DNA of 64,000 nt from Methylobacterium sp. (lineage in GTDB: Bacteria; Pseudomonadota; Alphaproteobacteria; Rhizobiales; Beijerinckiaceae), in the NCBI GenBank assembly GCA_020252645.1, contig JADCCN010000010.1:100250-164249 (forward strand), written 5' to 3'. The notes under the pieces were generated by a model that saw only the letters and a list, made by a program, of their open reading frames with translations, made no database searches and was not told the DNA's origin. Positions 12,996 to 64,000 of the stretch are shown piece by piece. Each line of letters opens with the position of its first letter. Position 1 is the stretch's first letter. A program made the position numbers and the translations under genes.

Positions 12996-13151
12996 GGCCG
13001 GGCGCCGGCCCGCGGCTCTTCGCGCGAGAGGAGGCGAAACGGAATGCCCCTTTCGCGCGAGGAAAATACGACAGAAAAAAGCGACAGAGCATCCGATCTC
13101 ATTCGGTCAGATCGGAGAATGCTCGAGGGGAATCGGCCGCGTGGGGGCGAA

Positions 13152-16326: not shown

Positions 16327-16622
16327 CGTCATTGCGAGGAGGGCGTAGCCCGACGCGGCAATCCAGCCTGGAGCATGCTGTGAAAAAGTGGAATCCGGTT
16401 TTTCATAAAAAAGCATGCGATAATAACAAGATAAGAGCATGATGTGCTTCCGTCTGAACACATCATGCTCTAGAGCGGTTGCCGATCTGACTGAATGAGA
16501 TCGACCGCTCTCTGTTCTTGTGATTGATCGCATTTTCTTCGATCAACCGGTGCCCACTTGATCCGAAAATGCTCTAAACAGGCGTTCTGGATTGCTTCGT
16601 CAGTTCCTTCCTCGCAATGACG
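16327..16622. repeat. CATTGCGAGG palindromic repeat split by another repeat
   Basis: Left arm 16327-16366 (CGTCATTGCGAGGAGGGCG ... CGCGGCAATCCAG) and right arm 16587-16622 (CTGGATTGCTTCGTCAG ... CTCGCAATGACG) are reverse complements of one family, the same as the element at 661-763. In this copy the arms are about 220 bases apart, and the space holds a composite hairpin repeat (16371-16577). It looks as if the composite repeat entered the older palindrome. Confidence 0.7.
16371..16577. repeat. Composite hairpin repeat, copy A (modules 1-2-3-4)
   Basis: Four hairpins in a row. Module 1: GCATGCTGTGAAAAA ... TTTTTCATAAAAAAGCATGC. Module 2: AGAGCATGATGTG-CTTCCGTCTGAA-CACATCATGCTCT, a perfect 13-bp stem. 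Module 3: AGAGCGG ... GATCT ... AGATC ... CCGCTCT. Module 4: GCATTTTCTTCGATCAA ... TTGATCCGAAAATGC. Other copies lie at 23790-23893 (modules 3-4 only, opposite strand), 30848-31053 and 63782-63982. Module 4 resembles a repeat very common in Hyphomicrobiales genomes. Confidence 0.85.
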
Positions 16623-23747: not shown

Positions 23748-23789
23748 GGCACCACCTCCCTGGAAAAACGCGCAAACCTGCTCCCTGAA

Positions 23790-23893
23790 GCATTTTTTCG
23801 ATCAAGCGGATGCCGGTTGATCGAAGAAAATGCGATCAATAACAAAAACATAGAGTGGTCGATCTGATGCAGTCAGATCGGCAACCGCTCTAA
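23790..23893. repeat. Composite hairpin repeat, copy D (modules 3-4, inverted)
   Basis: Read on the minus strand this is module 3 (AGAGCGGTTGCCGATCTG ... CAGATCGACCACTCT) followed by module 4 (GCATTTTCTTCGATCAA ... TTGATCGAAAAAATGC). Modules 1 and 2 are absent. It sits between dctP and dctQ in the direction of transcription, so the hairpins are in the operon mRNA. Confidence 0.8.
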
Positions 23894-29895: not shown

Positions 29896-30849
29896 ATGAC
29901 CGGTTTCACACGACGCTGTTTGGGTGCATTGCTGGCCGGAACCGGCGCGGTTCTTGCGCTTGGTTCAGCGCGTGCGCAGGCGGGATTGACGATATACACG
30001 GCCGGCCAGGGCTCGGCGTTCCTGCCTTATGGGCAGGGTCTCGGGCGCTACCTCGATGCGGCGGCGGGGCTCAAGGTCGAGATCGCGGAATCGAAGGGCT
30101 CGGTTGAAAACGCAGGCAAGGTCGAGGAAGGCGCGAACGCGCTCGCGACCGTCTTCCTCGGCACGGCTTTCGAGGCGTTGAACGGCCTCGCCTGGGCGAA
30201 CGGCAAGAGGCACGCGAAACTGCGCGCCCTCGCCCCGATGTATGAAACCTCGTTCCAAATCGCGGTGCCGGGCGGCTCGACCCTGCGCGATGTAAAATCG
30301 CTCGATGGCAAACAGGTCGGCATCGGTCCGGCAGGCGGCCCCGCCGAGGGGTATTTCAAGGCGCTCGCCGAAATTGCCGGGATTACACCCAAGCTTGTCG
30401 CGGGCAATCCGGCGGGTCTTGCCAAGAAGCTGATTGCGAAGGAAATCGACGCGCTTTGGCAGGGCGCGATCGTGCCGATCCCCTCGCTGGTGGATGTGCA
30501 GAAGGGTGACGCGGGCGCGATTGTGTTCGGGCTCACGGATGCGGAAGTCGAGGGCATGCTCAAGCGCTTCCCCTTCATGGCCAAAACCGAAGTCGCGCCT
30601 GGGACTTACGCGAACCAGCCTGCGGTGGTGAAAAGCATCTCGGCCTGGAATTTCGTGCTCGCGAACGCTGATCTCGTGGAAGAGACTGCCTATCGCATCA
30701 CCCGCGCGATGATCTCGGCGCAGGTGCCGGAGCGAGAAATCCACGCTTTCGCCAAGGGCGTCAGTGCGCAGAACGCCACGGCTAATCGCATCATCCCGTT
30801 CCACCCCGGTGCAGTGCGCGCGCTGAAAGAACGGGGCGTCACGGTCTAG
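29896..30849 (+). CDS. TAXI family TRAP solute-binding protein, orphan
   Basis: 317 residues, signal peptide MTGFTRRCLGALLAGTGAVLALGSARA, then LTIYTAGQGSAFLPYGQGLGRYL, a TAXI-family start. LDGKQVGIGPAGGPAEGYFKALAEIAGITPKLV is the typical middle. TAXI proteins normally work with one fused DctQM permease; none is here, and the nearest TRAP permeases are the unfused dctQM on the other side of the oxoprolinase gene. AAGGAGAGG precedes the ATG. It lies 94 bases after the oxoprolinase gene. The TAG stop forms the first bases of a composite repeat. Confidence 0.85.
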   Translation: MTGFTRRCLGALLAGTGAVLALGSARAQAGLTIYTAGQGSAFLPYGQGLGRYLDAAAGLKVEIAESKGSVENAGKVEEGANALATVFLGTAFEALNGLAWANGKRHAKLRALAPMYETSFQIAVPGGSTLRDVKSLDGKQVGIGPAGGPAEGYFKALAEIAGITPKLVAGNPAGLAKKLIAKEIDALWQGAIVPIPSLVDVQKGDAGAIVFGLTDAEVEGMLKRFPFMAKTEVAPGTYANQPAVVKSISAWNFVLANADLVEETAYRITRAMISAQVPEREIHAFAKGVSAQNATANRIIPFHPGAVRALKERGVTV

Positions 30850-31053
30850 AGCGGTTGCCGATCTGACTGAATCAGATCGACCGCTCTAGAGCATGCTGTG
30901 AAAAAGTGGAATCCGGTTTTTCACAAAAAAGCATGCGATAATAGTAAGATTAGAGCATGATGTGCTTCCGTCTGAACACATCATGCTCTAATCTCTTGAT
31001 TTACCGCATTTTCTTTCGAAGAACCGGTATCCACTTCTTCGAAAAAATGCTCT
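30848..31053. repeat. Composite hairpin repeat, copy B (modules 3-1-2-4)
   Basis: The same four modules as copy A but with module 3 moved to the front: AGAGCGG ... CCGCTCT, then GCATGCTGTGAAAAA ..., AGAGCATGATGTG ... CACATCATGCTCT, and GCATTTTCTTTCGAAGAA ... TTCTTCGAAAAAATGC. In module 4 both arms changed (GATCAA/TTGATC in copy A, GAAGAA/TTCTTC here), keeping the stem paired. The first two bases overlap the stop codon of the TAXI gene. The remaining 31054-31196 holds nothing further. Confidence 0.85.
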
Positions 31054-31196
31054 CGTTTTTGATGTCATCGGCTTTTTCCGCGCGAAAATGCCCACGAGAA
31101 CCCGGCCACGCGACTGACCTCGCCCCGGCACCGTGCGGCCGGCTCCTCTCCCGCGTGATGCGCGGGGCGTAAGCTGTAACGAAAACGGGTCGGGCC

Positions 31197-63761: not shown

Positions 63762-63781
63762 GGGCTTCCCTTTGTGCGTTT

Positions 63782-63982
63782 AGAGCATGCTGTGAAAAAG
63801 TGGAATCCGGTTTTTCACAGCATGCGATAATAATAAGATAAGAGCATGATGTGCTTCAGTCTGAACACATCATGCTCTAGAGCGGTTGCCGATCTGAATG
63901 AATGAGATCGACCGCTCTGTGTTTGTGTGATCGATCGGATTTTCTTCGATCAACCGGTATCCGTTTGATCGAAAAAATGCTC
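63782..63982. repeat. Composite hairpin repeat, copy C (modules 1-2-3-4)
   Basis: Same order as copy A. Module 1 is a perfect 15-bp stem here: GCATGCTGTGAAAAA ... TTTTTCACAGCATGC; copies A and B have extra A bases in the second arm. Modules 2, 3 and 4 follow, the last ending TTTGATCGAAAAAATGC. It lies 20 bases after the phosphoesterase stop. Confidence 0.85.
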
Positions 63983-64000
63983 CAATGGGGCTGCCCATCG

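Follow-up and report, generated by a model that had tools for sequence, protein, structure and literature searches.

The repeats analyzed here, from a 64,000-nucleotide stretch of a Methylobacterium sp. contig (the window), are two types of a single small mobile element with two hairpins, juxtaposed or nested at TA dinucleotides, and not a four-hairpin repeat whose parts have been shuffled. The elements are new members of a RIME1/Bru-RS-like family, and their mosaic appearance is explained: whole elements that land at a TA beside or inside one another yield the changed module orders. MITE-like insertion of whole elements is a very likely explanation for the single copies and the composites alike. 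This simple rule (whole elements, YTAR targets, TA duplication) replaces module shuffling and predicts both the composites and the nested orders.

Two element types at four sites

An earlier note on the window had described four repeat sites built from four hairpin modules. The sites exist, and sequence inspection and nhmmer place them within a few bases of where they had been located. The modules are not the units of the repeat: a single nhmmer profile of ~105 positions, made from a few copies, spans modules 1 and 2 as well as modules 4 and 3 and covers each intact copy end to end. Modules 1 and 2 form the type I element (~104 bp), while modules 4 and 3, read on the other strand, form type II. 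Both types run from hairpin A through an AT-rich linker to hairpin B and have TA at each boundary. The hairpins themselves are real. The six window elements tested fold as two hairpins far better than shuffled sequence, with fold z values of −4.2 to −10.6, and none of 200 shuffles folds equally well.

Composites A and D each comprise a type I element and an inverted type II element joined through one TA, the adjacent nhmmer matches overlapping by exactly 2 bp. In copy A, the type I element (16369..16472, plus strand, ends TG..TA) is a full-length nhmmer match with an orthologous copy in the relative G010 (L064), and it has TA 16471-16472 in common with the type II element (modules 3 and 4 inverted; 16471..16576, minus strand), itself a full-length nhmmer match that the covariance model also finds in the own genome. 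In copy D, type I (63781..63879, plus strand) has a hairpin A that is 5 bp shorter and forms a perfect stem (fold z −10.6), and it shares TA 63878-63879 with type II (63878..63984, minus strand); both match the profile over their full length. Copy B is a single type II element (23786..23892, plus strand; nhmmer match), and a degenerate partial element covering model positions 30-103 lies at 13051..13124 on the plus strand (nhmmer, 35.8 bits). The module orders first proposed hold on the plus strand for copies A, C, and D, but the order 3-4 given for copy B is true on the minus strand only. The arm pair GAAGAA/TTCTTC, previously assigned to copy B, in fact belongs to copy C; copies A, B, and D carry GATCAA/TTGATC.

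Copy C, with its order 3-1-2-4, is a type I element nested inside a type II element. The hairpin-B part of the split type II (30847..30888, minus strand) is followed by a type I element (30887..30990, plus strand; full-length nhmmer match) and then by the linker and the hairpin-A part with the GAAGAA/TTCTTC arms (30989..31054, minus strand), a reading based on the sequence and on joining the flanks. Removal of the type I element and one TA joins the first part to 30991-31054 and restores an intact 106-bp type II element with two hairpins, which scores 92.8 bits over model positions 2-105. The type II consensus contains a single internal YTAR, the TTAG at position 64, and this is where the type I element of copy C sits. 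Such nesting requires insertion.

Census, target sites, and composites

For a census we used contig C12:1-700000 together with contig C2, an 864-kb sample amounting to 28% of the own genome (G000) and picked independently of the repeat. It contains 67 full elements, ~99-112 bp long, and ~18 hairpin-A-only and four hairpin-B-only matches. Pure type I, with both arms, linker, and hairpin B of that type, is commonest by a wide margin (29 of 67); seven elements are pure type III, which has a CACGGTTTTGATTCC hairpin, and most others are type II. The 5′ and 3′ arms come from different classes in nine of the 67, most of them clear chimeras with a break near the conserved core. There is also a type IV, several copies of which (L010 1435-1498, L024 1295-1379, L027 1259-1314, and nearby) have a GC-rich sub-hairpin, CATGTCCCTCGCGAAGGCGGGGATG, inserted in the loop of hairpin A. 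In G010, five tandem 62-bp units of hairpin A plus linker stand beside one complete element (L067 1817-2127). Several contigs of the own assembly are broken inside tandem type I copies with a ~101-bp period (the starts of C1 and C24, the ends of C3 and C5), so that the assembly probably lacks long type I arrays.

These counts bear on the earlier proposal that every hairpin moves or is templated as a unit of its own, with composites built module by module. The solo hairpin-A matches and the 62-bp hairpin-A arrays speak for such independence, are unlike simple whole-element insertion, and count against our own explanation; hairpin classes are also occasionally swapped between subfamilies. Yet the 67 full elements face only four B-only matches, type I retains its two hairpins in a fixed order, and every odd order in the window resolves into whole elements. 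Whole elements dominate, and assembly from independent hairpins is extremely improbable.

The flanks of the elements define the target. Among 33 type I copies, the left flank is YTA (C in 26, T in 7) and the right flank TAR (G in 29, A in 4). Two same-genus genomes, G007 and G010, roughly 86-97% identical over aligned stretches, served as outgroups. At one site, G007 has the empty sequence CCTAGATC where the own genome reads CC-TA-GAGC..GCTC-TA-GATC. A second empty site in G007, CCTAGAACA, holds one element in G010 and two in the own genome. These are two clean cases of TA target duplication, and others are compatible with it. In addition, the copy B site is empty in both relatives, as is that of a II+I composite (L044:6973-7178), whereas composite A is present in G010 and missing from G007. 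At L044:16084-16398, occupancy grows stepwise, from type II only in G007 to I+II in G010 (where the left flank of the contig differs) and III+I+II in the own genome. Own and G010 copies of type I are 96-99% identical and G007 gives only weak matches, so the spread of type I is recent. One further candidate empty site (L026) was set aside as uninformative because G007 has an unrelated ~320-bp stretch there. Composite A itself splits the loop of an older palindrome, CGTCATTGCGAG..CTCGCAATGACG (16327..16620, no strand assigned), uninterrupted 83-94 bp copies of which occur elsewhere in the genome. This palindrome family, CGTCATTGCGAG..CAATCCAG loop CTGGATTG..CTCGCAATGACG, has other copies at C12:149498 and C12:534530 and is unrelated to the element.

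The duplicated TA also weighs on whether the repeats are REP/BIME-like units mobilized as single-stranded hairpins by a Y1 (RAYT) transposase. They resemble such units in being palindromic, intergenic, clustered, and mosaic, with enrichment in convergent gaps. Y1 chemistry, however, is not known to leave a target duplication, and neither the duplication of TA seen at empty sites nor insertion at YTAR fits it, which makes a Y1-driven origin very improbable.

The elements often adjoin one another. The 864-kb sample holds 15 pairs with exactly one TA in common, nine joined A/B and six B/B. No A/A junction occurs among the 15, a result that has a chance of ~0.013 under random orientation and counts against our explanation. 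With the elements themselves excluded, intergenic DNA and stop codons of the same sample together offer only 302 YTAR sites. When a simulation placed insertions randomly among tolerated YTAR sites with CTAG preferred 5-fold, a weight that derives partly from flanks that are elements and is applied to crude gene calls, it gave 14.9 shared-TA pairs (5-95%: 11-19) against the 15 observed; a 3-fold preference gave 12.9 pairs, and no preference 9.4. Within this model, simple random insertion at YTAR explains the composites and a special assembly mechanism appears unnecessary.

Composites and arrays might instead stem from resident copies, through duplication, recombination, or gene conversion among them, and not from fresh insertion. 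The tandem type I arrays at contig ends and the arm chimeras are as expected from such exchange, and so is a site at which one TA has three occupants: type I in the own genome (L046:14958-15061), a solo hairpin-A palindrome in G010 (L065 294-333), and an inverted type II-like element in G007 (L059 5265-5370). Against this stand the orthologous sites that are fully empty with a single TA, the nested copy C, and the ability of the insertion model alone to reach the observed number of pairs, so we hold exchange among residents to be an unlikely main source. The three occupants of one TA could reflect replacement instead of insertion. A related and improbable idea is that elements rewrite in place: three close relatives each have another type at the same TA, and half-hairpins are swapped at the GTGGATACCGG core. 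Residents would then be landing pads for replacement or templating, and stop codons (C-TA-G) would be safe since the first G restores TAG.

Whole-element insertion, the reading we favor, can be put as a mechanism. The element is probably a non-autonomous, MITE-like unit. Its ~105 bp comprise hairpin A, built as arm-GTGGATACCGG-arm, followed by the AT-rich linker and by hairpin B, and short terminal inverted repeats, GAGC..GCTC, bound it. Its target is Y-TA-R, and the empty sites show that the TA is duplicated. Type I represents a recently amplified subfamily and type II an older, more diverse one. At the 64% G+C of this genome, tolerated YTAR sites are scarce, and each inserted copy brings in CTAG-like sites at its two ends. 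For that reason, later copies often land on an earlier one, either at its shared TA or, in the case of copy C, at the YTAR within it, giving the apparent module orders. Arm sets differ by subfamily, with recombination at the conserved core reshuffling them.

Stop codons and arm pairing

Genes were called by a simple codon-usage caller (coding fraction 0.86-0.87), and the calls are crude. None of the 49 clusters lies inside a called gene; all are intergenic. Convergent gaps hold 19 of the 47 clusters that have two neighbors, compared with 91 of 465 gaps overall, and divergent gaps hold five of the 47. In the 864-kb sample, the end of a cluster is the exact stop codon of the adjoining gene at 22 of 98 ends. 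In 21 cases this codon is TAG and in one TAA, yet TAG closes only 83 of the 707 genes in the sample. In two cases the cluster separates a convergent gene pair, and each gene of the pair ends on it. In the window, the receptor-like gene at 29896-30849 ends on copy C: according to the open reading frame list and the sequence, the TA of its TAG (30847..30849, plus strand) is the terminal TA of the element. In-frame openness at element ends has the same bias (35 versus 18 and 10 in the own sample; 15 versus 5 and 6 in Methylobacterium). The element begins with G, so that TAG is restored when it inserts at the TA of a stop codon. For one site, TCC-TAG is already present in the G007 orthologue, with the frame judged by eye, and the gene ends at the other sites are presumably native stops. 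This exact coincidence of element ends with stop codons is new to us, and literature searches on RIME and on precedents for insertion at CTAG or stop codons gave no direct result. Restoration of TAG by the first G may indicate how a compact genome tolerates hundreds of insertions; the coincidence, like replacement at one site, deserves further attention.

The same context could suggest that selection retains the hairpins as terminators at gene ends or as signals for RNA stability and that they are not primarily mobile. Their stems are strong, they are always intergenic and enriched in convergent gaps, and many adjoin stop codons. Near-identical dispersed copies, empty sites, TA duplication, and the clusters in divergent gaps all point the other way, and selection as the primary cause is improbable.

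Arm pairing was counted in 28 non-redundant elements, visible chimeras excluded, by scoring the two-hairpin structure explicitly, because RNAalifold on the whole alignment favored pairing of the element ends. Overall, 90.2% of cells pair, compared with 35-43% in slid controls. Both-sided changes affect ten pairs and 49 cells (shuffled mean 14.6, reached in 0 of 500 shuffles), a number whose bearing on selection for folding is limited by shared ancestry within subfamilies and by the excluded chimeras. The arms covary between whole subfamilies, and to this extent the arm changes are compensatory as first suggested. The suggestion does not extend to the nine of 67 elements with mismatched, mostly chimeric arms, which indicate that pairing is often lost.

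Candidate mobilizing enzyme and relation to known systems

A DDE transposase of the IS5/IS427 kind, which has the same YTAR target site, is the candidate that would move the elements in trans. Insertion sequences of this type with PF13340 in these genomes share the target, e.g., CCTA/GGCATCGTGGACAAA../TAGT. On the Methylobacterium aquaticum plasmid pMaq22A_1p, a 908-bp IS5/IS427-type insertion sequence with PF13340 sits exactly at the TA common to two tandem elements (W02:387168-388075; L146 1432-2339). Domain searches of the own assembly found no transposase with PF13340 or PF01609, and an IS427-type enzyme was rejected as the present source in this genome. The insertion sequences encode a transposase and have termini GG.. 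or AGG.., in contrast to the GAGC.. of the non-autonomous elements; among 24 PF13340 loci, none was recognized with the element's GAGC termini. Both negative results count against our explanation. As in TA-duplicating MITEs, the target is duplicated at empty sites; an autonomous partner with matching termini did not turn up among these loci or in the own assembly.

An Rfam gathering search of the sequence returned three tRNAs only. Our covariance model R1 finds full-length matches on plasmids of Bradyrhizobium, of Methylobacterium aquaticum (24, including a TA-sharing pair), and of Sinorhizobium meliloti (nine on pSymB; best E 8.8e-7). The earlier pointer to relatives in rhizobia was right. 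R1 matches at E <= 1e-6 occur in 23 of 61 sampled genomes of the order, the own genome included. The 23-base type I core is found in Methylocystis, Methylocapsa, Rhizobium, Martelella, Allorhizobium, and Agrobacterium, as well as in MAGs from other alphaproteobacteria. The MAG 'Methylobacterium sp. M169S2SP2A32QC' carries near-identical type I elements, and one S. meliloti pSymB copy matches 388 plasmid records, mainly from Rhizobium and Sinorhizobium. By these sequence matches, homologous elements occur across the Hyphomicrobiales, and the ~105-bp repeats of rhizobia, Methylobacterium, and their relatives form one family under a single covariance model.

RIME1, the Rhizobium-specific intergenic mosaic element, was reportedly described by Osteras et al. 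in 1995. The pSymB elements, which we take to be RIME1 as published, are ~93-104 bp long, and most have two hairpins as well as ends resembling TAGAGC..GCTCTA and flanks of the YTAR type. The elements of the window resemble them in being intergenic, repeated units of ~105 bp with two palindromes, and differ from the pSymB copies in arm sequence. The host range of the family presumably matches that expected of RIME1. In enterobacteria, the BIME/REP repeats likewise are intergenic palindromes combined into mosaics; unlike these, the elements described here duplicate TA, have a fixed two-hairpin unit, and use another target.

The Bru-RS1 and Bru-RS2 repeats of Brucella were reportedly described by Halling and Bricker in 1994. 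They are related palindromic repeats of 103 and 106 bp and serve as hot spots for insertion of IS711, whose YTAR target undergoes TA duplication (PMC3163539, PMC2266754, PMC10800456). Compared by description only, they are like the elements here in length, in palindromes, and in serving as a hot spot for an insertion sequence at TA/YTAR. IS711 and the IS5/IS427-type insertion sequences have the same YTAR target and TA duplication, and the Methylobacterium insertion sequence at the TA common to two elements parallels IS711 at Bru-RS (PMC3163539, PMC2266754). The preference of IS711 for Bru-RS may have a simple reason, namely that the ends of these elements are YTAR sites where YTAR is otherwise scarce.
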